Source: Deltaproteobacteria bacterium (GTDB taxonomy: Bacteria > Desulfobacterota > DSM-4660 > Desulfatiglandales > Desulfatiglandaceae). From it: a stretch of 64,000 bases of DNA. This document shows positions 1 through 11,003 of this stretch, piece after piece. Under the pieces are notes generated by a model that saw only the letters and a list, made by a program, of their open reading frames with translations, was not told the origin of the DNA and did not search any database. The stretch is taken from assembly GCA_019307945.1 (NCBI GenBank), contig JAFDIS010000001.1, forward strand, positions 62,001 to 126,000, given 5' to 3'. Numbering within the stretch: position 1 is the stretch's first letter; each line of letters begins with the position of its first letter. The position numbers were made by a program, and so were the translations under genes.

Positions 1-242
1 GCAATGCCAAGCCTTGAGATATCACTGATGCTTTTTGCCAGCAGGTCCCGTCCTTCGAAATTGATTTCACCGGTGTCGGGCCTGTAAATCCGGCTGATCA
101 GATTGAAGATGGTCGTCTTGCCTGCACCATTGGGCCCGATGATGGCATAAATTTCACCTTCCCTTACATTGAAATCAACTCCAGCCAACGCCTGAAGGCC
201 TCCGAAATTGATGCTCAGATCCTTTACCTCTAATAATTCCAT
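1..242 (-). CDS. Branched-chain amino-acid-type ABC transporter ATPase (LivG-like), N-terminal part
   Basis: Partial gene cut by the left edge. Translating the reverse strand from the ATG at 242 gives about 80 residues starting MELLEVKDLSINFGGLQAL. The Walker A motif GPNGAGKT follows, and then the 'RIYRPDTGEI' stretch typical of LivG-family ATPases of HAAT uptake systems. It would power import of a hydrophobic or carboxylic substrate with LivH/M permeases that must lie to the left. It lies about 150 bp downstream of the mutase small subunit on the same strand, so it may be the last visible member of the catabolic operon and hint at uptake of the operon's substrate. The Walker B and signature motifs lie outside the window. 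Confidence 0.9.
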   Translation of the reverse strand, partial: MELLEVKDLSINFGGLQALAGVDFNVREGEIYAIIGPNGAGKTTIFNLISRIYRPDTGEINFEGRDLLAKSISDISRLGI

Positions 243-390
243 GGCCGGCCTTTCCATGGATGGAAGCCACTCCCTCCCGGACTTGAAGAAATTCGTCCCC
301 TTAAGCTATTGGCTGTCTGTATTGGCGCCAGCCGTCTTCCTTTGGTGATTTTATTGGTGTTGGTTGATACCTGCCATGGATCGGCGGCAC
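243..390. other. Spacer between LivG-like gene and mutase small subunit
   Basis: About 150 bp with no convincing coding frame, no strong promoter and no clear hairpin terminator that I can see. Confidence 0.5.
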
Positions 391-798
391 TCAAGGCCCT
401 TTTGTTGAAAAGTAATCGTCGAGATATTCTATGACTTCTCTTGCCAGTGATCCACGAAAGACCCTGCTGACTCCCATTTCCAGAAGCTTTTCCTCGTCCT
501 CGGGAGGAATGATGCCCCCGATGATGACCGGAAGATCATCCGCCTCCTGCTTATGGAGTTCCTGCATCACCAGGGGGGTCAGGGTTAGGTGCTCACCCGA
601 GTGAAAGCTGATGCCAACCATGTCCACGTCTTCCTGGATAGCACTTTGAATCAGCATCTCTGGTGTATTATATAGGCCGAGATATATAACCTCATAGCCT
701 TCTGCCCGAAGCAGTGATGCCAGGACCTTCGCCCCCCTGTCGTGGCCGTCGAGTCCAAGCTTGGCTATCATGATGCGAACGTGCCTTCCGGACGCCAT
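391..798 (-). CDS. B12-binding small subunit of an acyl-CoA mutase
   Basis: About 135-residue cobalamin-binding domain of the methylmalonyl-CoA mutase class. The signature GLDGHDRGAKV (DxHxxG, whose His ligates cobalt) lies near the N terminus, followed by the SFHSGEH and IIGGIIPPED stretches of the Rossmann-like B12 fold. The length matches the free-standing small subunits of isobutyryl-CoA and 2-hydroxyisobutyryl-CoA mutases (family knowledge). The start at 798 is chosen because GGGAG lies 8 nt upstream. A longer frame to 903 exists, but its extra 35 residues do not look like the family. The large subunit is two genes upstream (2482-4146), separated by an FAD oxidoreductase gene, which is an unusual split. 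It should dock on the large subunit to carry adenosylcobalamin. Confidence 0.92.
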   Translation of the reverse strand: MASGRHVRIMIAKLGLDGHDRGAKVLASLLRAEGYEVIYLGLYNTPEMLIQSAIQEDVDMVGISFHSGEHLTLTPLVMQELHKQEADDLPVIIGGIIPPEDEEKLLEMGVSRVFRGSLAREVIEYLDDYFSTKGP

Positions 799-912
799 CT
801 CGCTGTCTCCCACATTTCGTTTTTCCCTGGAGGATCCAGGAAAACTCAAACCAGATCCCGGTGAGTCGCACCCCTGCGATAAACCGCAAGAAACCCCTTT
901 CACGCCAATCTC

Positions 913-2439
913 TTAGTACCGCGAATACTCCGGCAAGATCTCACTAGCGTAGTCCCTATTACTTACCCGACTCGCGGCGATGATACCTGCGTGGACGGCA
1001 GCGTCATTGGCAGCCATGGAGCATTCCGAACTGTCCGATGCAAGATAGAGGCCTTTCACGTGGGGAGACTTGGCCCGCGGCCTGGCGTCCCCCACCTGAA
1101 ATGGGGCCTGAGCCACTGGAACCAAGCTGTCGGAGACCGTATACAATGTCCAGGAAAGAGCCTCTTTAAATCCCGGATAATGTTCGGTCATGAATGCCAA
1201 CATCCGGTCATAGGCCAAATTGACCAGCTCCGGGTTGTGCGCCTCCTTGTCCGTCAGGGATACATAGGCGTCCACCAACTGCTTTCCGGCAGGCGCGCGT
1301 TGAGGATCCATGCCCGAGCTGTCCCAAAACCCCATTCTCACGTCACTGTCAAATCCATGTTCCCTGCCCGCGATCTTTGGGATAAATGTCAAATGCTCCT
1401 GTACAATTTTCCGATCAAGCCCGAAATACACGGCTCCTATTCCGGCGCTCCAGAATCCCTTGACACGCTTGACGAAGGTATAGGGAAAGTGTTTTTCGGG
1501 AATATACTGGAACATTTCGTTTACCAATCCGGAATTGATCACAACAGGGCAATCGATCTTCTCTTCCCCTCCCTCCATGTCCACCAGCACACCTTTCACC
1601 CTGCCCGCCTCGATCAATACCTCTTTTACCCTGGCCCGGGTCACCACCCGGCCGCCATTCTCTTTGATCACGTCACAAAATGAGAGAGGAATCTGGACAA
1701 ACCCCGGCAACCCCGGCGTAGAACACCCTCCAAATGAAAAACGCTTCCCTGCGCGCGCTACCGCACGATTCATCAAGATATTGTCACCGGCCGAGATGTT
1801 GGCGGGATCATTGATGGTGCAATTCATGGTCGCATTGACATAGTGAAATTCTTTGGTATTGTTGTTGTCGGTTCTGGCCTCCATCCACTCTTTAAGGCTG
1901 ATATGGTCATAGGAATGGGCCTCTTGTGCGGACATCCTCACCATCAAGCTGTTGATTTTTCCGGTCTCAGCCCTGCCCTTTTCATCCATCCAGGGGAAAT
2001 TACCGCCCCGCTCCGAACCGTTTTCAAAACGATAAAGCTTTCCCCCATGCCACCAACCCGCGCTTATCGCCGGATAGAGTGTTAAAGGCTTCCCCAGGTA
2101 GGAGAGGCATGTGTTGGTTCTCCCCTTTTCGGTCACCATGAGGGTATGGATGCCCGCTTCAAATGAGTACCCATCCAGAAGGCCCTGGCGAAACAACTCC
2201 TGGAGGCCCGGTTCGGACTTAACGTACCATGTGTGCGCCGAATCATTGATGGCCTTCCTATATGTTTCCGGGTCTTCGTCCTGGAGGCGGAAGGAAATAT
2301 CCCTTCCACCCACTCGAGATGCCTTTTCGAGAACCAAGACCTTCATACCTTCCTTCTTTGCCAATATGGCGCCGGCCGTGGGTCCCCCGACACCCGCGCC
2401 TATCACAATCACGTCAAACCTTTCGTTCCGCATGAACAT
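913..2439 (-). CDS. FAD-dependent oxidoreductase, phytoene-desaturase-like
   Basis: 508 residues with an N-terminal dinucleotide-binding motif (VIVIGAGVGGPTAGAILA) followed by the EKASRVGGR motif of the amine-oxidase/phytoene-dehydrogenase superfamily. A C-terminal FAD closure region is also present (KGLYLASDSSECSMAANDA). There is no signal peptide or membrane span. The substrate is unknown. Its position between the two mutase subunit genes suggests a redox step on the same acyl-CoA or its free acid, possibly desaturation of a ring or chain. An SD-like AGGGGAG lies directly before the first ATG (2439); the second ATG (2433) is better spaced. The fold is secure; the role is inferred from context only. 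Confidence 0.85.
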   Translation of the reverse strand: MFMRNERFDVIVIGAGVGGPTAGAILAKKEGMKVLVLEKASRVGGRDISFRLQDEDPETYRKAINDSAHTWYVKSEPGLQELFRQGLLDGYSFEAGIHTLMVTEKGRTNTCLSYLGKPLTLYPAISAGWWHGGKLYRFENGSERGGNFPWMDEKGRAETGKINSLMVRMSAQEAHSYDHISLKEWMEARTDNNNTKEFHYVNATMNCTINDPANISAGDNILMNRAVARAGKRFSFGGCSTPGLPGFVQIPLSFCDVIKENGGRVVTRARVKEVLIEAGRVKGVLVDMEGGEEKIDCPVVINSGLVNEMFQYIPEKHFPYTFVKRVKGFWSAGIGAVYFGLDRKIVQEHLTFIPKIAGREHGFDSDVRMGFWDSSGMDPQRAPAGKQLVDAYVSLTDKEAHNPELVNLAYDRMLAFMTEHYPGFKEALSWTLYTVSDSLVPVAQAPFQVGDARPRAKSPHVKGLYLASDSSECSMAANDAAVHAGIIAASRVSNRDYASEILPEYSRY

Positions 2440-2481
2440 CTCCCCTCTAGATTTCGTTGCTCAGAATATGCCGCACCCGCC

Positions 2482-4146
2482 TCAAAAAAAGGGGTGACTC
2501 ACGATTTCAAAGGGATCATAAGGTTCTCCCATGGCCACCCGAACGGTGCCCAGGACCTCGGCCAGCGTGGCATAGTTTCGGGCCGCTTCGATCATGGCCG
2601 GAATCAGGTTTTCGTGCTCTCCCGCCTCCGCCCTCAATTTTATCTCCCGGAGAGACTCCTTCACTGCATTTTCATCCCGGCTTTCCTTCAGGAGTTTCAA
2701 CCGGGAAACCTGCAATCTTTCAGCCTCAGGATTCACGCGATGAGCATCGCCCGCGCGGGGATCTTCCTCAATACGGAAGCGGTTCAGGCCCACCACAATG
2801 CGATCCTCATTCTCCACCTCCCTCTGATATCGGAGAGAGGCTTCATCCATTTGGGCGTCGATCCAGCCCGACTCCAAAGCGTCTTTCATACCGCCCTTGC
2901 CGTCGATCGCCTCCATGATTCGAACGGCCTCATGTTCGATTTGTTCGGTCAGCGATTCGATATAATAGCTCCCACCGAGAGGGTCCGCCACCCGCGCTAC
3001 ACCCGTTTCATACGCCAGAATTTGCTGAGTCCTGATGGCCAGCCTGACGGATTCTTCCGTGGGCAGCGCAATGGGCTCGTCATAGGAACAGCAATGAAGA
3101 GACTGAACACCCGCCAGCACGGCGGCGAGGGCTTGGTAGGCAACGCGAATGATATTGTTCCGGGCCTGGTGAGGAACCAGGGAACATCCTGCTGTGTGAA
3201 CCCCGAATTTGAATTTCCATGACCTTGGATCTTTGGCCCCGAAACGTTCCTTCATTATCTTCGCCCAGATACGACGCGCCGCCCTCAACTTGGCTATCTC
3301 CTCGAAGAAATCGATGTGGGCCGAACAGTAAAAGGCGAATCGGGGAGCAAATTCATCGATATCCAGACCCCGTTCCAAAACTCCCTGAATATAGAGAATG
3401 GCCATGGAAAAACCGAAAGCGAGTTCCTGGGGGGCGGTGAGGCCCTGTTCCCGTAAGTCGTACATGTTAACGTTGATGGGATACCAACGAGGCATATGGC
3501 GCGTGCAATATTCGATCACGTCCACCCCGGTCTTCAGAGCAAGGTCGATTGGGGAAGAGATCCTGAACCCGGCATACCGGCAATGAACCGGATCATTTTG
3601 CGTCGTTCCCGCGAGATCGCCCGGTTTGAATCCCTTGCTCTGCGCAAGGGCGATATATTGAGACAGGGCAACGGGTGTCTGGGTCGATGACGCGATCAGC
3701 GACATGCTGATCTTTTCCAGGGGCATATCCCTCATGAGCAGTTCCATGTCCTGGAGCGTACACATGGGTACACCCTGTACCCCGACTTCACCCGAAGCCC
3801 TCGGGTGATCGGAATCAATTCCCATGATGCTTGGATTGTCCGGGATCACATTCAGTCCGCTTGCCCCCTCCGCCACCAGATACTTCAATCTTTCGTTGGT
3901 ATCCTCAGGGGTACCGTACCCGCTCACCTCGCGTCGTGTCCAGTAGCGGCCTCGAAACATATTGCGATGGATTCCCCGCGTATAGGGATAGTCGCCGGGA
4001 TTCCCGATCTTCATCTTGTAGTCGAAACCGGAAATATCATCAGGACTGTAGAACTCCTTCAAAGGAAGGCCTGACCAAGTTTCCAGATCGGCAGGTTTTT
4101 CGTGATAAGCATCCGCCATTCCGGCGTCTTCCTTCTTCTCACCCAT
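2482..4146 (-). CDS. Acyl-CoA mutase large subunit (methylmalonyl-CoA mutase family)
   Basis: 554 residues covering the substrate-binding TIM barrel but no B12 domain, like IcmA/HcmA-type subunits. Family landmarks are GIDSDHPRASGEVG (about 109-122), LAGTTQND (178-185), FAPRFAF (266-272), KLRAARRIWAK (286-296) and DEPIALPTEESVRLA. Aligned by eye to Propionibacterium methylmalonyl-CoA mutase, three active-site positions differ. Tyr89 is Phe64. The carboxylate-binding Arg207 is Lys205. The catalytic His244 is Asp230, with its Tyr243 neighbour kept as Tyr229. The enzyme therefore probably rearranges a substrate other than methylmalonyl-CoA. It sits inside a ring-cleavage/beta-oxidation operon. 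The start is either Met1 (4146) or Met10 (4119), the latter with AAGGA upstream. Confidence 0.92.
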   Translation of the reverse strand: MGEKKEDAGMADAYHEKPADLETWSGLPLKEFYSPDDISGFDYKMKIGNPGDYPYTRGIHRNMFRGRYWTRREVSGYGTPEDTNERLKYLVAEGASGLNVIPDNPSIMGIDSDHPRASGEVGVQGVPMCTLQDMELLMRDMPLEKISMSLIASSTQTPVALSQYIALAQSKGFKPGDLAGTTQNDPVHCRYAGFRISSPIDLALKTGVDVIEYCTRHMPRWYPINVNMYDLREQGLTAPQELAFGFSMAILYIQGVLERGLDIDEFAPRFAFYCSAHIDFFEEIAKLRAARRIWAKIMKERFGAKDPRSWKFKFGVHTAGCSLVPHQARNNIIRVAYQALAAVLAGVQSLHCCSYDEPIALPTEESVRLAIRTQQILAYETGVARVADPLGGSYYIESLTEQIEHEAVRIMEAIDGKGGMKDALESGWIDAQMDEASLRYQREVENEDRIVVGLNRFRIEEDPRAGDAHRVNPEAERLQVSRLKLLKESRDENAVKESLREIKLRAEAGEHENLIPAMIEAARNYATLAEVLGTVRVAMGEPYDPFEIVSHPFF

Positions 4147-4167
4147 TTCTCTCGCGACCCCCGCCCG

Positions 4168-5316
4168 TTACAAAGGATTACTCAGATATTTTCGGGAAAT
4201 GACGATTCTCTGGATTTCGGAAGTACCTTCCACTATTCGCAGCAGGCGTACATCCCTGTAAAGCCTTTCAGCCGGGTGCTCTCTTATATAGCCCATGCCA
4301 CCGTGGATCTGAACATTGGCGTCCGCGGCCCGCCATGCAACTTCGGTGGCAAAGACCTTTGCCATGGAAGCTTCCGTATTTCTCTCGAGATCCGCTTCCA
4401 TATCCTTTGCCAGGGTGTAGACCATAAGACGCGCAGCCCATATCTCGGTGGCCATGTCCGCGATCATTCCCTGAATAAACTGCTGCTTTGCGATGGGCTT
4501 TCCAAAGGCCACCCTCTGGCTTGCATAATCACAGGCCATTTCAAAGGCTCTTTGTGCAGCGCCCAGTGCCGTTGCAGCCACTCCCAGCCGACCGAAGGCG
4601 AGCGTCTTCATTGCTACCGCGAAACCCTGGCCCGGCTTCCCCAGGAGGTTCCCGACCGGAACCGTGCAGTCTTCAAAAATCAGGCTGCCGGTCGCAGAAC
4701 CGTGCCATCCCATCTTTTTTTCCTCTTTTCCTTGAATAAATCCACGGGCACCCTTTTCCACAAGAACGGCACTGATTCCGCCATGGGCGCCGAGCTTCTT
4801 GTCAGTAACGACAATGACGGTCGCCACATCCGCCACCGGACCGTTTGTGATGAACTGTTTGGTTCCATTGATGACATAATAATCCCCACGGCGCTCGGCC
4901 GTAGTTTTTATCGCGCCTGCGTCGGAGCCTGCATCAGGTTCGGTCAATGCGAAGCAAGCGATCATCTCGCCGCTGGCTAGTTTGGGCAGGTATTTCTCTT
5001 TCTGCTCGTCACTTCCTTGGTAAAGGATTCCCTTTGAACCGATTCCGTTGTTCAGCAGGAAAAAACTGCCGAATCCCATATTCGTACGACCAAGTTCCTC
5101 CCGCAAAACCGCCAAACCCAGAGGCCCCATACCCGACCCGCCGTATTGCTCAGGTATGGTAAGTCCGAAAAGGCCTAGGTCTCTCGCCTTTTTCACCAAT
5201 TGATCCGGAACCCTCTCTTGTTCATCGATGAGGTACGCCAAAGGTTCCACTTCGTCTTCCACAAACCGCCGAACGGTTTGTTTAAGGATCTCAATTTCTT
5301 CAGGCAGCTCGATCAT
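4168..5316 (-). CDS. Acyl-CoA dehydrogenase
   Basis: 382-residue flavoenzyme of the acyl-CoA dehydrogenase family: an all-alpha N-terminal domain, a beta domain with CFALTEPDAGSD (near 140) and a C-terminal helical domain. The catalytic-base motif RIVEGTSEIQR is intact, so it should introduce an alpha,beta double bond into an acyl-CoA and pass electrons to ETF. It overlaps the upstream crotonase gene by 4 bp (ATGA), so translation is coupled. Together with the BadH- and BadI-like proteins it could play the role of cyclohexanecarboxyl-CoA (AliB/BadJ-type) or another alicyclic acyl-CoA dehydrogenase. The exact substrate cannot be read from the sequence. Confidence 0.93.
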   Translation of the reverse strand: MIELPEEIEILKQTVRRFVEDEVEPLAYLIDEQERVPDQLVKKARDLGLFGLTIPEQYGGSGMGPLGLAVLREELGRTNMGFGSFFLLNNGIGSKGILYQGSDEQKEKYLPKLASGEMIACFALTEPDAGSDAGAIKTTAERRGDYYVINGTKQFITNGPVADVATVIVVTDKKLGAHGGISAVLVEKGARGFIQGKEEKKMGWHGSATGSLIFEDCTVPVGNLLGKPGQGFAVAMKTLAFGRLGVAATALGAAQRAFEMACDYASQRVAFGKPIAKQQFIQGMIADMATEIWAARLMVYTLAKDMEADLERNTEASMAKVFATEVAWRAADANVQIHGGMGYIREHPAERLYRDVRLLRIVEGTSEIQRIVISRKYLSNPL

Positions 5317-6131
5317 TGCGGCTTTTCCTCAAAATCCCTATCTCTCCACGCAAGAGCTTGTTTCATTCCTTTCGAATTGACGATCTCCCAGAATTTTTCC
5401 ACGGTGTGGGTGAAGTGACTGATGGCGTCCAGTTCGCATGCAGCAATTATGCACTGCTTTAGACCCATGGCCTCCAGCGTTCTGTTGATTACCAGCTTGT
5501 TAACGGAGAGGAGGTCCACGGGGATTGCGGCCATCCTGCGGGCCAGAGCCATGCCTTCGGTTTCAAGCTCTTTAGCCCGCACCGCCTTGGCTACGAGCCC
5601 CCATTCAGCCGCCTGTTTTCCATCGATGGTATCACCTGTCAGCATCAGCATTTTTGCCCTCATGGGCCCGACCAGATACGCCCACATTTGCGTAAGCGGA
5701 GTTCCGATGCCTCTCACACCCGGGTGCCCGATTCTGGCATCCTCCGCAGCGATAACCACGTCGGCCAGGAGTGCCATGTCTGTGCCGCCCGCCAGACAAA
5801 CTCCATGGACCAGAACGATAATGGGTTTTTCACAATTCCACAGAGTCAACCATCTCTTTGCCACGTTTTCCAGTCTCTTTCGATCTTGCAGTATTGAACG
5901 TTGTCGATAGGCAAGCGTACCGCCCGGCTCTATATCATAACCCGCGGAAAAACCGCGCCCGGCCCCTTTGATCACGATCACCCGAATTTGAGGATCCGCT
6001 TCCGCATCCCCGATGGCCCGGACAATTTCCTCCTGCATGTCCACGCTCAAGGCATTCAGCTTTTCGGGTCGATTCAAGACGATCGTTGCCACACGGCTAT
6101 CCTTTCCCAGGAGTATATGCTCAAATTCCAT
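5313..6131 (-). CDS. Enoyl-CoA hydratase/isomerase (crotonase-fold) protein with altered active site
   Basis: 272-residue crotonase-fold protein with the oxyanion-hole region GRGFSAGYDI and the glycine-rich LAGGTDMALLADV segment. By eye, the two acid/base glutamates of classical enoyl-CoA hydratase are absent: the first aligns with Asp in GGTDM and the second with Gly in IGHPGVRG. It may therefore be an isomerase, hydrolase or specialised hydratase rather than a standard hydratase. GAGAGG lies 5 nt before the ATG at 6131; a GTG two codons upstream is less likely. The context is between two acyl-CoA dehydrogenases in the BadHI-type operon. Confidence 0.9.
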   Translation of the reverse strand: MEFEHILLGKDSRVATIVLNRPEKLNALSVDMQEEIVRAIGDAEADPQIRVIVIKGAGRGFSAGYDIEPGGTLAYRQRSILQDRKRLENVAKRWLTLWNCEKPIIVLVHGVCLAGGTDMALLADVVIAAEDARIGHPGVRGIGTPLTQMWAYLVGPMRAKMLMLTGDTIDGKQAAEWGLVAKAVRAKELETEGMALARRMAAIPVDLLSVNKLVINRTLEAMGLKQCIIAACELDAISHFTHTVEKFWEIVNSKGMKQALAWRDRDFEEKPQ

Positions 6132-6279
6132 AAGCACCTCTCATGTGCCAATCCCATTCTCTTGACTTCAGCCCTGCCCCCCCAGCGTCTTCTCACGGGC
6201 AAGGGGCAAAACAGAGACATATTCTCTTTTGGTCCCCCTGTGCGGTTAAGGAAAATGCCGTTCAGGGACGGAATGGATC

Positions 6280-7425
6280 TCACCCGTATCTCTTCAGAAG
6301 GTTCCGGGCGATTTGAATCCTCTGAATCTGATTTGTCCCTTCGATAATCTGTGTCGCTTTAGCATCGCGCATCATTTTCTCCACGGGATACTCCTTGGTA
6401 TACCCATATCCCCCCATTACCTGCACAGCATCCGTGGTTACTTTCATGGCCATGTCGGAAGCAAAGCATTTGGCCACAGAAGCGTAGTAATGTTGATCCC
6501 TCATGCCCTTGTCGACCGAGGATGCGATCTGATAAATAAGGGCCCTGGCGCATTCGACCTTTATGGCCATGTCGGCCAGCATGAAGGAGACGCCCTGAAA
6601 TTCCGCGATCGGTTTTCCAAACTGCTCTCTCTCCCTTGCATAGGCAACTGCGGCATCCATGGCACCCTGAGCTATCCCCAGTGCCATGGCCCCCACCAGT
6701 ACCCTGGTCTCCGTGAGGGACCGCAACACCAATTCCCATCCCTTGCCGACTTGTCCCAGTAGATTCTCGGCGGGAATTCTCATATTTTCAAAAACCAACT
6801 GCCGGGTTGGAGAGGCACGAAGTCCCATCTTGTTTTCGTTTTTCCCGATGGATAGGCCGGGTGTATCCTTGTCCACGAGGAATGCAGTCACACCGTCTCG
6901 TCTCATTGCCGGGTTAACAGTAGTAAAGAGCACATACAGGTCGGTTAGTCCGCTGTTGGAAATGAAACACTTTGTCCCATCGATGACGAAGCCGTCCCCG
7001 TCCTGCCTGGCCCGCGTGGTGAGGGAAAACGCGTCGGAACCGGCATTCGGTTCGGTCAGGGCGAATCCAACAAGATAGTCACCCCGTCCGACTCTCGGTA
7101 GATATTTGTCTCGCTGCATTTCATTGGCGCCACCCATAAACGCGCACATGCCTGCCTGATGATGCGCGATGGTATTGGCACAGGCACCATCCACCCGGGC
7201 GATTTCTTCCACAACGATACACGCCGACGTGTAATCCATTTCAGCGCCGCCATATCTTTCTGGGACCCGCAAATTGAACAATCCATAGTCCACGAACAAC
7301 TGGTGTAAATCCCACGGATATTCCTTGGTTTCGTCCACCTCCCTGGATCGATCGGCTATCTTTTCGCGGCACAATTTTCGAATCATGTCGCGCACCATTA
7401 TTTGTTCGTCGGTAAATGTGATCAT
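6280..7425 (-). CDS. Acyl-CoA dehydrogenase
   Basis: 381-residue acyl-CoA dehydrogenase with VGFALTEPNAGSDAFS in the middle domain, GGYGYTKEYPVEKMMRD, and an intact catalytic glutamate in QIIEGTNQIQR. It is a second, clearly different paralogue of the enzyme at 4168-5316, so the operon provides two successive dehydrogenations or two chain lengths. GAGGGT lies about 7 nt before the ATG. About 150 bp of apparently non-coding DNA separates it from the crotonase gene downstream. Electrons would go to ETF and the quinone pool, but no etfAB is present in this window. Confidence 0.93.
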   Translation of the reverse strand: MITFTDEQIMVRDMIRKLCREKIADRSREVDETKEYPWDLHQLFVDYGLFNLRVPERYGGAEMDYTSACIVVEEIARVDGACANTIAHHQAGMCAFMGGANEMQRDKYLPRVGRGDYLVGFALTEPNAGSDAFSLTTRARQDGDGFVIDGTKCFISNSGLTDLYVLFTTVNPAMRRDGVTAFLVDKDTPGLSIGKNENKMGLRASPTRQLVFENMRIPAENLLGQVGKGWELVLRSLTETRVLVGAMALGIAQGAMDAAVAYAREREQFGKPIAEFQGVSFMLADMAIKVECARALIYQIASSVDKGMRDQHYYASVAKCFASDMAMKVTTDAVQVMGGYGYTKEYPVEKMMRDAKATQIIEGTNQIQRIQIARNLLKRYG

Positions 7426-7468
7426 CGAAAGACCCTCGATAAAGGATTGAGAGCAATACCGGGATGTA

Positions 7469-8221
7469 TCAATCCACCATAGTGAGTCCGCCGCTAACGC
7501 TCAACACCTGTCCTGTAACAAAATCCGACAAGGGAGATGCGAAGAACAACACGGCATTGGCCAGCTCTTCGGGCGTGGCTTGCCGCCCCATGGGAATGGC
7601 TCTTTTCAATGCCTCCCGCAGTTTTTCCGTGGTTCCTTCTATGTGTCCCGGAGTCATGGTAGGACCGGGCGATACGCTGTTCACGTTGATCTTGTAACGT
7701 GCCACTTCCCTTGCCAGGGATTTGGTAAAGGCGATGACCCCGCCCTTGCAGCCCGCGTAAACGGTTTCGCCCAAACTGCCTACTCGACCCGCATCGCTGG
7801 AAATGTTTACAATCTTCCCACTCCTCTTTTCGATCATATGGGGCACCGTCCAGTAACAACAATTAACGGGTCCTCTATAGTTGACATCAATGATTTTCCG
7901 GCGAAACTCCTCCGTCGTTTCCCAGAAAGGTTGCGCCACGTCCCACCCCACATTGTTTACCAGGATATCGATGGTGCCGAACCTCGCCAGTGTCTCTTCA
8001 ACCATACTTTTCGTCTGGTCAATGCTGGCCACATCAACGTTGAGACAAAGCGTATCCACACCGTACTTATCCTTTATCAATGCTTCCGTCTCCGCCAATA
8101 CCGGCTGGTCGATATCGACCAGGGAGAGGTCAGCTCCGTATTCGGCCAGTTTCAGTGAAATTCCTTTTCCGATTCCCTTGGCCGCGCCTGTTACGATGGC
8201 CTTTTTCCCCTTGATGTCCAT
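7469..8221 (-). CDS. Short-chain dehydrogenase, 2-hydroxycyclohexanecarboxyl-CoA dehydrogenase (BadH)-like
   Basis: 250-residue SDR with the NAD-binding TGAAKGIGKG motif near the N terminus, NNVGWD, a catalytic Ser in ISSDAGRVGS and the YAGCK Tyr/Lys pair. The combination of NNxGWD, ISSDAxRVGSxGExVYA and the C-terminal GQVLSVSGGLTM closely follows BadH of Rhodopseudomonas palustris as I recall it. BadH oxidises 2-hydroxycyclohexane-1-carboxyl-CoA to the 2-keto form. The next gene upstream is BadI-like, the enzyme that cleaves that product, which supports the call. A strong SD (GAGGAGGT) precedes the ATG. Confidence 0.88.
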   Translation of the reverse strand: MDIKGKKAIVTGAAKGIGKGISLKLAEYGADLSLVDIDQPVLAETEALIKDKYGVDTLCLNVDVASIDQTKSMVEETLARFGTIDILVNNVGWDVAQPFWETTEEFRRKIIDVNYRGPVNCCYWTVPHMIEKRSGKIVNISSDAGRVGSLGETVYAGCKGGVIAFTKSLAREVARYKINVNSVSPGPTMTPGHIEGTTEKLREALKRAIPMGRQATPEELANAVLFFASPLSDFVTGQVLSVSGGLTMVD

Positions 8222-8302
8222 GGCACCTCCTCAATAATTCCCCTATGGGGCATGACGATCCGGACCGGTAATGCTCCGCCTTCAATGTATTAATAATGGC
8301 CG

Positions 8303-9085
8303 CTACTTCAGGAATTGCCGAAAGTCGGGCTTTCTCTTTTCCAGAAAACTCCTCCTGCCTTCCAAAGCCTCGTCGCTGGCGTAATATTGCCAGAGCCCTT
8401 CACCGGCCAGCCGTTGTTGGCCGTATATCCAGTCTGTCGGGGTATTGAGGGCGATCTTTAGAAAACCTAAGGCCGTGGGGCTCTTATCCAAGATTTCCTG
8501 GCACCAGGCGTCTACCTCTTCCATCAACTTGTCAGCAGGGACGACTTTGTTTACCAGGCCCATCTCGAGCGCCTCGCGAGCGGTATAAGTCCTGCACAGA
8601 AACCACATCTCCCTCGCCTTCTTCTCCCCGATAACGCGCGCAAGATATGCCGCTCCGAACCCCGCTTCGAAGCTGCCCACCTTGGGACCTACCTGGGCAA
8701 ACTTTGCGTTCTCCGAAGCAATGGTGAGATCGCAGAGGACGTGCATGATGTGCCCGCCTCCAACGGCCCACCCGTTGACCGCTGCTATCACAGGTTTTTG
8801 TGACATCCTTATCAGCCGTTCTACATCAAAAATCTTTTTCACCCCGCGGCTGTAACCCGCCTTTCCGCCGGTAATGTCCTCGGAATCACCTCCGGTGCAA
8901 AAGGCCTTCTTCCCCGCCCCTGTAAGGACAATAACACCTATGCCGTAGTCGTCCTTGGCGTCTTCCAGGGCCTGAATCATTTCCACGAGGGTTTTTGTCC
9001 TCAAGGGGTTGTGTTTTTCGGGGCGGTTGATGGTGATCTTGGCCACTCCCTCACTTTTTTCATACAAGATGTCTTCGAAATTCAT
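8303..9085 (-). CDS. 2-ketocyclohexanecarboxyl-CoA hydrolase (BadI)-like / MenB-family ring-cleaving enzyme
   Basis: 260 residues, the same length as BadI. This crotonase-superfamily protein has FCTGGD, the GWAVGGGHIMHVLCDLTIAS segment and FAQVGPKVGSFEAGFG, ending KRKPDFRQFLK much like BadI. BadI hydrolytically opens 2-ketocyclohexanecarboxyl-CoA to pimeloyl-CoA, while MenB performs the reverse-type ring closure. With the adjacent BadH-like SDR, ring opening is the favoured reading, although the ring could be a larger or substituted one. It is the first gene of the minus-strand operon, with SD AGGGAGG just before the ATG and a promoter about 120-150 bp upstream. The divergent tandem TetR gene probably controls it. 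Confidence 0.88.
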   Translation of the reverse strand: MNFEDILYEKSEGVAKITINRPEKHNPLRTKTLVEMIQALEDAKDDYGIGVIVLTGAGKKAFCTGGDSEDITGGKAGYSRGVKKIFDVERLIRMSQKPVIAAVNGWAVGGGHIMHVLCDLTIASENAKFAQVGPKVGSFEAGFGAAYLARVIGEKKAREMWFLCRTYTAREALEMGLVNKVVPADKLMEEVDAWCQEILDKSPTALGFLKIALNTPTDWIYGQQRLAGEGLWQYYASDEALEGRRSFLEKRKPDFRQFLK

Positions 9086-9114
9086 AATTCCTCCCTAATT
9101 ATAACGTATTTAAT

Positions 9115-9152
9115 AGTTATTTTTCTGATTATAGCACTAAATAACTGCTATA
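9115..9152. promoter_or_regulatory. Second dyad cluster in the badI-like leader
   Basis: Two nested inverted repeats are present. TATAGCA-N9-TGCTATA occupies 9130-9152 with perfect 7-bp arms. AGTTATTT (9115-9122) and AAATAACT (9139-9146) are perfect 8-bp arms separated by 16 bp. They lie in the 5' leader of the badI-like operon and could be a second regulator site or an RNA structure. Confidence 0.4.
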
Positions 9153-9204
9153 TTTCCATGCCTGAGTCGATCACCTATCTCCACAATAAAATTTCATTCT
9201 GAAA

Positions 9205-9233
9205 AATATAAATACGAATGAAATTCGTGTCAA
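9205..9233 (-). promoter_or_regulatory. Sigma-70-type promoter of the badI-like operon
   Basis: Reading the minus strand, TTGACA (9233-9228) is followed after exactly 17 nt by TATATT (9210-9205). This is a consensus -35 and a 5/6 -10 match. It would start transcription near 9198, leaving a leader of about 110 nt before the badI-like ATG. Confidence 0.7.
9214..9228. promoter_or_regulatory. Operator palindrome inside the badI-operon promoter
   Basis: ACGAATgaaATTCGT is a perfect 6-bp-arm palindrome with a 3-bp centre lying between the -35 and -10 boxes. An inverted partial copy (AATTTCATTC, 9190-9199) matches GAATGAAATT at 9216-9225, with 16 bp between the arms. Occupancy would block RNA polymerase. 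The likely ligand is the divergently encoded tandem TetR protein. Confidence 0.6.
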
Positions 9234-9396
9234 GAAAAACTTTTCCTGGCAAGTTCAGGGGCGCGGTGAAATTTTTTTCTTGACTTTTTGATTAATATTA
9301 GCCAATCTAACTCCATTTTATAAATAACCATTTTCAAAGAAGCAATCATTCTTTCCCGAATTAGCTTTATAAACTGCATGGGAGATTCTTGTAATC

Positions 9397-10566
9397 GTGA
9401 AAACCGAAAGGTCAAATAAGGATTTGATTATGAAGGCTGCTGAAACCCTTTTCTCCACCAGGGGTTTCTTGGAAACAAAGATTTCAGATATCGCCACGCA
9501 AGTGGGAGTAAGCGACAGTACAGTCTATGAACATTTCAAGAACAAGGAAGATATCCTCTTTTCCATACCCCGGGAAAAAACTCAGCAACTTATTGAAATC
9601 AACAAACAACACTTGAAAGGGTTGGTGGGAGCGGAGGTAAAGCTGAGAAAGCTGATATGGAATTATATAGACTTTCTCGTCATGAACGAGAGCTATACTT
9701 CTCTTTTGCTCTTCGAACTCAGATCCAACAGGGATTTCTATGAAACAGAGAATCATGAATTAATCAGGTTGTTTACAAGGGAATACAGCAATATTATCGT
9801 GGAAGGGCAAAAGGAGGGCTATTTTTCCACGCGGTTCAGGCCATCGATCGTGCTGCACATGATTTTCGGAACCATAGATCTCATCTTGATCACCTGGCTT
9901 GTGGAGAGGAGACCCAAGGACCCTCTGGAACTCTTTGACGGGCTCTTTGATCTCTTTTGCCACGCAATTCGGGTCAGAGAGACAGAGGCGGGAACCAAGG
10001 GCAAAAAAGAACGGATCCTACATGCCGCGACCCAAGTTTTCTCTCGTGTCGGTTTTCAGAAGGCACGCATACAGGACATCGCCGGATTGGCCGGAGTCGG
10101 AGATGCCACCATCTATCAATACTTCTCCAACAAAGAAGAGATCCTATTCGCCTTGCCGGTAGCAAACACTCTGGAATTACTTTCTATTCAGGAAGAACAC
10201 CTGAACGGCTTCAAAGACACGGATCTCAAACTGAATGTGCTTCTGAAGGACTATCTGGACTTCCTTGACTCTCACAAGGAATACAGTTCCATTTGTCTCT
10301 TTGACCTGAGGTATAATAAAAATTTTTATAATAAGGAAGCTTATCATCTCTTTCGTAGATTCGCGCGGGTTTTCTATAACGTCATTGAGGAAGGGATCCG
10401 GAAGGGGCACTTCAGACAGACGCTCAATCCGTATCTGGCCACGAAGCTGATCTTCGGGATTACCGATCACATTATCCTGTCCTGGATCAAATTCGGACGA
10501 CCCAAAAGGCTGGCCCTGGTTTCAAACACGGTGTGTGGTCTGGTTTTGAAGGCCCTCCAACCGTAA
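9397..10566 (+). CDS. Tandem TetR-family regulator (two full TetR units in one polypeptide)
   Basis: 389 residues containing two complete TetR/AcrR proteins. Unit 1 spans residues 5-192, with a helix-turn-helix around 27-52 (ISDIATQVGVSDSTVYEHF). A short linker around 193-202 follows. Unit 2 spans 203-389, with its HTH around 225-250 (IQDIAGLAGVGDATIYQYF). The two C-terminal ligand domains also match each other (LFELRSNRDFY versus LFDLRYNKNFY; HMIFGTIDLILITW versus KLIFGITDHIILSW), so this is an internal duplication. TetR proteins normally act as homodimers, so this chain may form a covalent pseudo-dimer. It starts at GTG 9397, with GGAG upstream. It is divergent from the badI-like operon and is the natural candidate repressor, probably sensing an acyl-CoA. 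Confidence 0.93.
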   Translation: MKTERSNKDLIMKAAETLFSTRGFLETKISDIATQVGVSDSTVYEHFKNKEDILFSIPREKTQQLIEINKQHLKGLVGAEVKLRKLIWNYIDFLVMNESYTSLLLFELRSNRDFYETENHELIRLFTREYSNIIVEGQKEGYFSTRFRPSIVLHMIFGTIDLILITWLVERRPKDPLELFDGLFDLFCHAIRVRETEAGTKGKKERILHAATQVFSRVGFQKARIQDIAGLAGVGDATIYQYFSNKEEILFALPVANTLELLSIQEEHLNGFKDTDLKLNVLLKDYLDFLDSHKEYSSICLFDLRYNKNFYNKEAYHLFRRFARVFYNVIEEGIRKGHFRQTLNPYLATKLIFGITDHIILSWIKFGRPKRLALVSNTVCGLVLKALQP

Positions 10567-10613: not shown

Positions 10614-11003
10614 TCGATCCCGCGCCATCGCCTCTATATCCACCGATTTCACAGCATGGCCTATTTTCTGGAGTTCTTGAAGGCCGTGACCGGAGAAGAG
10701 TTGGGGCCGTCGGAACTGTTGCGCCGCGGCGAACGGATTTGGAATCTCTACAAGCTCCTCAATGTCCGGGTCGGCTTGACCCGCCGCGACGATCAAGCCC
10801 CGGCAGCATGGTTCGAGCCCAAGAAAATCGGGGATCGCGAATTCCTTTTGATGGATTATTACCGGAGCACGCACATCACGAGGGAAGACACGGTGCGGAT
10901 GCTGACCGAGTACTACGAGGCCAGAGGCTGGGACAAGAACACGGGCGTCCCTACCCCCGCCAAGCTCAAGGAACTTGCACTCGAAGATTTCGATTCACGA
11001 TAG
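10614..11003 (+). pseudogene. C-terminal remnant of tungsten aldehyde:ferredoxin oxidoreductase
   Basis: An open stretch after an in-frame stop at 10611. From the Met codon at 10656 about 115 residues match the last domain of aldehyde ferredoxin oxidoreductases: FLKAVTGEEL, LLRRGERIWNLYKLLNVR, a run of RRDD, and the terminal YYEARGWDKNTGVPTP. The W-pterin and [4Fe-4S] domains (about 500 residues) are absent; the tandem TetR gene lies directly upstream. It is therefore a decayed gene end rather than a working enzyme. A MoeA-like gene and a PadR regulator next door suggest the former presence of a W/Mo enzyme locus. It overlaps the end of the convergent padR-like gene by 9 bp. Confidence 0.8.

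Follow-up and report, generated by a model that had tools for sequence, protein, structure and literature searches.

The locus at positions 9397 to 10566 of a 64,000-nucleotide stretch of DNA from a Deltaproteobacteria bacterium (contig JAFDIS010000001.1; the whole analysed stretch is called the window here) raises the question of what a regulator from a family of homodimers does with two complete units on one chain, how such a chain arose and which genes it controls. The first-pass annotation described the product as two full TetR proteins joined head to tail and similar over their whole length. This description held up, as Pfam finds TetR_N twice and TetR_C_4 twice in the 389-aa protein, so that both domains that define the TetR family (the helix-turn-helix and the all-helical C-terminal ligand domain) occur in duplicate, and BLASTP aligns residues 1-195 with residues 196-389 over 170 residues with no gap (40% identity, 64% positives, E 4e-49), which rules out a chance likeness of the halves. 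The start codon is GTG, and the orthologue at locus L015 likewise has GTG at the matching position. The protein and its parts are placed as follows.

9397..10566, plus strand: double TetR (FadR-type) regulator, 389 aa (from the ORF, Pfam, NCBIfam and the AlphaFold2 model)
9415..9969, plus strand: N-terminal TetR/FadR half, residues 7-191, with the helix-turn-helix at residues 29-46, ISDIATQVGVSDSTVYEH
9970..10002, plus strand: variable linker, residues 192-202 (from orthologue comparison and model pLDDT)
10003..10557, plus strand: C-terminal TetR/FadR half, residues 203-387, with the helix-turn-helix at residues 225-242, IQDIAGLAGVGDATIYQY

At the DNA level the halves can no longer be matched, which means that the duplication is not a recent one. 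The register from one half to the next is 196 residues and the FadR protein of B. subtilis has 194, therefore two whole FadR units have been joined with almost no linker added. The linker residues have a mean identity of 15% among orthologues and include the lowest pLDDT of the model (residues 197-200). Since both halves are kept in four orthologues and their helix-turn-helix motifs are about equally conserved (mean identities of 65% and 63%), neither half is decaying. Across orthologues, the recognition helix reads DST(V/I)YEHF in N halves and (G/A)D(A/G)T(I/V)Y(Q/N/K)(Y/H)F in C halves, a fixed difference that fits an unequal reading of half-sites without demonstrating it.

Among solved proteins, FadR of B. 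subtilis and of B. halodurans come closest in sequence, and for each half FadR is also the closest in structure. The protein reaches 209.6 bits, in two stretches, with the NCBIfam model of Bacillus FadR (NF053878), whose cut-off is 200, and because this score sums both halves, the FadR membership of a single half is less certain. In Foldseek and VIA comparisons the halves match FadR structures with a TM of 0.89 by target length and an rmsd of 1.7-2.4 A. FadR of Bacillus, whose ligand is a long-chain acyl-CoA, is a homodimer of chains of about 194 aa, and what is found here instead is a 389-aa double chain, kept in four orthologues. From sequence, we assign the regulator to the FadR (acyl-CoA-sensing) subfamily as a double-TetR repressor with both halves of FadR type.

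The AlphaFold2 model of the 389-aa chain, built from a 36-row alignment, has a pLDDT of 89.7 and a pTM of 0.82 and shows the TetR helix pattern twice. The top whole-chain Foldseek match of this model is Mce3R (9b7y), and across both halves the rmsd to it is 18.8 A in Foldseek and 16.3 A in VIA; with 16-19 A over both halves, the model does not demonstrate that the halves are placed relative to each other as in Mce3R. The model of a member of the large double-TetR family lies 4.9 A from Mce3R over 286 residues in both halves. A swap of alpha-9 between the halves, to which the VIA ranges (5..389) pointed, was dropped, as the FadR entry concerned aligns in place (5..190) with the sister model, where the last few residues alone jump. 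The covalent pseudo-dimer proposed in the first-pass annotation is thus the best reading, as the model sets the halves together with good confidence and Mce3R folds in this way, while the geometry itself stays a matter of modelling and analogy.

We scanned one genome per species for orthologues and then searched the genomes of the class and of the phylum. Three orthologues were recovered, with 63% (L015), 53% (L011) and 51% (L124) identity, and both halves are kept in all of them; as these come from other genomes, an assembly artefact or a fusion particular to this metagenome-assembled genome is ruled out. More distant double TetRs also came up in the one-genome-per-species scan. Double FadR-type TetRs at E 1e-60 or better occur in 10 of 85 genomes of the class and in 24 of 395 (6%) of the phylum, where they are thus common. 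The description of such a chain as unusual for the family is true of the textbook TetR and too strong beyond it, given Mce3R, 204 predicted actinomycete proteins and the 6% of sampled phylum genomes. The source genome itself (G000) encodes three double TetRs, namely the present protein, C59 (L002/L154) and C172 (L161:1051-2328), the latter two from two other lineages. Two seemingly half-length genes turned out to be double TetRs broken in the assemblies: a supposed natural split in G001 (L103/L163, C78) is a run of N in an assembly gap, and the short TetR gene in G391 (L141/L164, C52) is a double TetR cut by the end of its contig.

The regulator gene is divergent to a long operon, and the features of this side of the locus are the following.

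9086..9396, no strand assigned: divergent intergenic region of 311 bp with promoters and putative operators
9205..9233, minus strand: sigma-70-type promoter of the badI-like operon, TTGACA - 17 nt - TATATT, 11 of 12 consensus positions
9214..9228, no strand assigned: candidate operator (inferred), the perfect palindrome ACGAATTTCATTCGT (ACGAAT-GAA-ATTCGT) in the promoter spacer
9190..9225, no strand assigned: wider inverted repeat AATTTCATTC - 16 - GAATGAAATT spanning the -10 region, an alternative operator
8303..9085, minus strand: BadI/MenB-like ring hydrolase, probable first gene of the target operon (from family searches and orthologous loci)
391..8221, minus strand: rest of the probable target operon, with an SDR, an acyl-CoA dehydrogenase, an enoyl-CoA hydratase, a second acyl-CoA dehydrogenase, a methylmalonyl-CoA-mutase-like subunit, an FAD oxidoreductase and a B12-binding subunit

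The SDR is BadH-like, and the scores for the BadI and BadH families lie below their curated cut-offs; the substrate of the operon is probably a cyclic acyl-CoA. The badI gene of the three other orthologous loci is 82-84% identical to that of the window and divergent to the double TetR, and the arrangement of an acyl-CoA dehydrogenase and badI divergent to the double TetR is present in all four orthologous loci, while no badI and acyl-CoA dehydrogenase neighbours were found at the other double TetR loci examined. A badI gene at such identity is rare (4 of 390 genomes), and the double TetR stands beside it in three of these four. The fourth genome, G159, has the operon with a different neighbour and without such a regulator beside it, which counts against our preferred explanation; at L159 (G159 C18) the divergent neighbours of the badI operon are a 168-aa protein (7809-8315) and an FAD oxidoreductase (8395-10026). 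Because the linkage extends across distant families, the spread is patchy and the GC content of the regulator gene is lower than that of the window (45.5% against 56.4%), the data suggest that the gene set moves horizontally.

As a separate observation, the catabolic set at 391-9085 (minus strand) is unusual in that a BadI/MenB-like ring hydrolase occurs together with an FAD oxidoreductase, a methylmalonyl-CoA-mutase-like subunit and a B12-binding subunit encoded separately; judging from the genes, the set may serve to cleave rings by way of a carbon-skeleton mutase. In G085 and G159 badI likewise has mutase and FAD genes nearby, and in G159 the B12 gene as well. On the other side of the regulator, a 115-aa reading frame (10656-11003, plus strand) is a remnant of an aldehyde ferredoxin oxidoreductase that covers positions 291-385 of AFOR_C alone. 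As an intact 659-aa AOR stands directly beside the orthologous regulator in G085 (L153:3950-5929), the AOR gene was probably lost in the window.

A single sigma-70 site with 11 of 12 consensus positions is no more than shuffled sequences give; the conservation of TTGACACGAA, which lies in the badI direction in the intergenic region of three of the four orthologous loci, and of an exact 18-mer common to the promoters of the window and L015 in otherwise diverged surrounding DNA supports the badI promoter. The candidate palindrome (on the other strand ACGAAT-TTC-ATTCGT) sits between the -35 and the -10 of this promoter. We chose the motif on the window before counting it in the orthologous intergenic regions, where it occurs within two or three mismatches in all three others (shuffle frequencies of 0.015, 0.025 and 0.135), and among these loci a palindrome-like site near the badI promoter is kept in L015 and L124 alone, each with one intact or nearly intact half-site (GCAAATAAGATTCGT in L015, ACGAGTATGATTCAA in L124). 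The asymmetric operator that the first-pass annotation had envisaged finds no support here, since the best candidate site is perfectly palindromic, despite the fixed divergence of the recognition helices. The consensus of the FadR box is TGAATGA-N4-TCATTCA, and a search for this Bacillus box in the intergenic region gave no match above chance. In addition, a 17-nt inverted repeat (88%) at 9229-9284, formed from GTCAAGAAAAACTTTTC and GAAATTTTTTTCTTGAC, corresponds to back-to-back -35-like elements of the divergent promoters.

Taken as a whole, we consider it likely that this is a FadR-type double-TetR pseudo-dimer that represses the divergent badI-like operon until an acyl-CoA binds. One whole FadR-like gene would have been duplicated in tandem and fused by read-through into a double repressor, whose two halves would pair inside the chain as in a normal TetR dimer, so that the two helix-turn-helix motifs could sit together on a single operator between the -35 and the -10 of the badI-like operon. 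The regulator would then repress the divergent operon, and probably also the promoter of its own gene within these 311 bp, and a pathway acyl-CoA (probably cyclic) would bind, spread the helix-turn-helix motifs and make the repressor leave, which would release the operon. By a rule of thumb, repression of the divergent neighbour goes with an intergenic region of under 200 bp, to which Mce3R is an exception (PMC3511530); the 311 bp found here exceed this limit and count against repression of the divergent operon.

The tree of 117 TetR halves speaks for a history of its own. In the window clade the N halves form the sister group of the C halves (support 99/87), each a distinct lineage over four genomes (100/100 and 100/99), and the nearest outgroup of the window clade consists of single-domain FadR-type proteins (92/62, moderate support; L097-L109). 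In the large double family (L013, L018, L091, L113 and others, with C59 among them), the N and C halves fall in two older, separate clades, and a tree that keeps the C halves (or the N halves) from the two groups in a single clade is rejected (AU p 0.0002 and 4e-111, values that are optimistic as the constraint groups were named after inspection of the tree). Since the halves are sister clades and a common origin with the large family is rejected, the fusion in the window probably arose separately, through duplication of a whole FadR gene. The main escape from this reading is gene conversion: all double FadR-type TetRs could descend from one ancient fusion, with the closeness of the halves here as a later product of conversion. 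The frequency of double TetRs in the phylum and the plausibility of conversion between adjacent repeats speak for it, but both the rejected constraints and the moderately supported single-domain outgroup stand against it, and we regard it as very unlikely. We lean instead, with some reserve, towards the view that FadR-type regulators of this phylum have given rise to single-chain TetR pseudo-dimers several times independently: through duplication of a whole gene in the window clade, along an older route in the large family, and again in other lineages, among them C172 and L136-L138. If this is true, covalent pairing is a recurrent means by which the two half-sites and the two ligand pockets of acyl-CoA repressors become free to diverge.

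Two other explanations concern what the joined chain does. Two chains might pair N half with N half and C half with C half, giving a bivalent regulator for two different palindromic operators or two ligands, and the short linker (about 11 residues), the presence of more than one inverted repeat in the intergenic region, the conserved difference between the recognition helices and the failure of the whole model to superpose on Mce3R would all agree with it. We nevertheless hold this arrangement to be unlikely, as the model sets the halves against each other confidently by its pTM, the model from the sister double-TetR family fits Mce3R over both halves, and Mce3R, the only solved double TetR, rejects such an arrangement. 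A less improbable possibility, although still a doubtful one, is that the fusion is functionally near-neutral, with pairing inside the chain, the same palindrome and ligand for both halves and no gain over a FadR homodimer; this is a narrower version of our preferred explanation, so our confidence in the two overlaps. That the best candidate operator of the window is the perfect palindrome ACGAAT-N3-ATTCGT and that single-chain FadR-type sisters are known in the tree are in its favour, but the halves have remained two lineages in four genomes with fixed differences in their recognition helices, and at the matching sites of L015 and L124 only one half is intact. The repressing pseudo-dimer stays the reading that we prefer.

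What is new here is the history, namely the probably separate origin; joined TetR switches are already known. Mce3R is the only double TetR repressor for which we found a solved structure, and the probably independent origin makes the present protein a useful comparison for double TetRs. Together with its single-domain sisters it forms a natural before-and-after pair within one subfamily, which allows a direct test of how covalent pairing affects the symmetry of operators and the sensing of ligands in a family of homodimers. It is also a candidate regulator, and a possible biosensor part, for the anaerobic breakdown of cyclic acyl-CoAs. Literature searches for a TetR called tandem or single-chain returned nothing relevant under those names, and no article in the collection searched brought together as many as four of FadR, TetR family, Desulfobacterota, anaerobic and cyclohexane.

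Among known systems, the closest parallel in architecture is Mce3R of M. tuberculosis (Rv1963c, PDB 9b7y), which cryo-EM on DNA shows with intramolecular M1-M2 pairing, as in the Mce3R kind in general around a four-helix bundle; its units form a homodimer and bind non-palindromic 25-bp sites, its halves fall in different TetR subgroups, and its authors cite 204 double TetRs predicted in actinomycetes (PMC11667970). Both proteins have two complete TetR units per chain of about 400 aa, and as the Mce3R gene adjoins a lipid-related operon that Mce3R represses, the regulator of the window adjoins its probable target operon. The intramolecular pseudo-dimer of Mce3R carries two different helix-turn-helix motifs, a geometry that the window protein would probably adopt too. 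The identity in the structural alignment is 17-18%, and no full-length kinship in sequence to Mce3R was found (phmmer, 50 residues at E 4.8e-7; best stretch of the family profile, 57 residues), so the window protein is not an Mce3R orthologue; it also differs in origin, by probable self-duplication of a FadR unit. In contrast to the Mce3R halves from different subgroups, the window halves are 40% identical to each other; the helix-turn-helix spacing is 204 aa in Mce3R and 196 aa here, and the best candidate site of the window is palindromic, unlike the Mce3R sites. FadR (YsiA) of B. subtilis and B. halodurans (PDB 3whb/3whc, 5gp9/5gpc) shares its sequence signature with the window protein and its fold with the two halves, but it is a 194-aa homodimer and not a 389-aa fusion. 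The large double family of the phylum agrees with the window protein in size, architecture and subfamily, and some of its members adjoin acyl-CoA genes, but it differs in having no such badI operon beside it and in having its halves in separate old clades.
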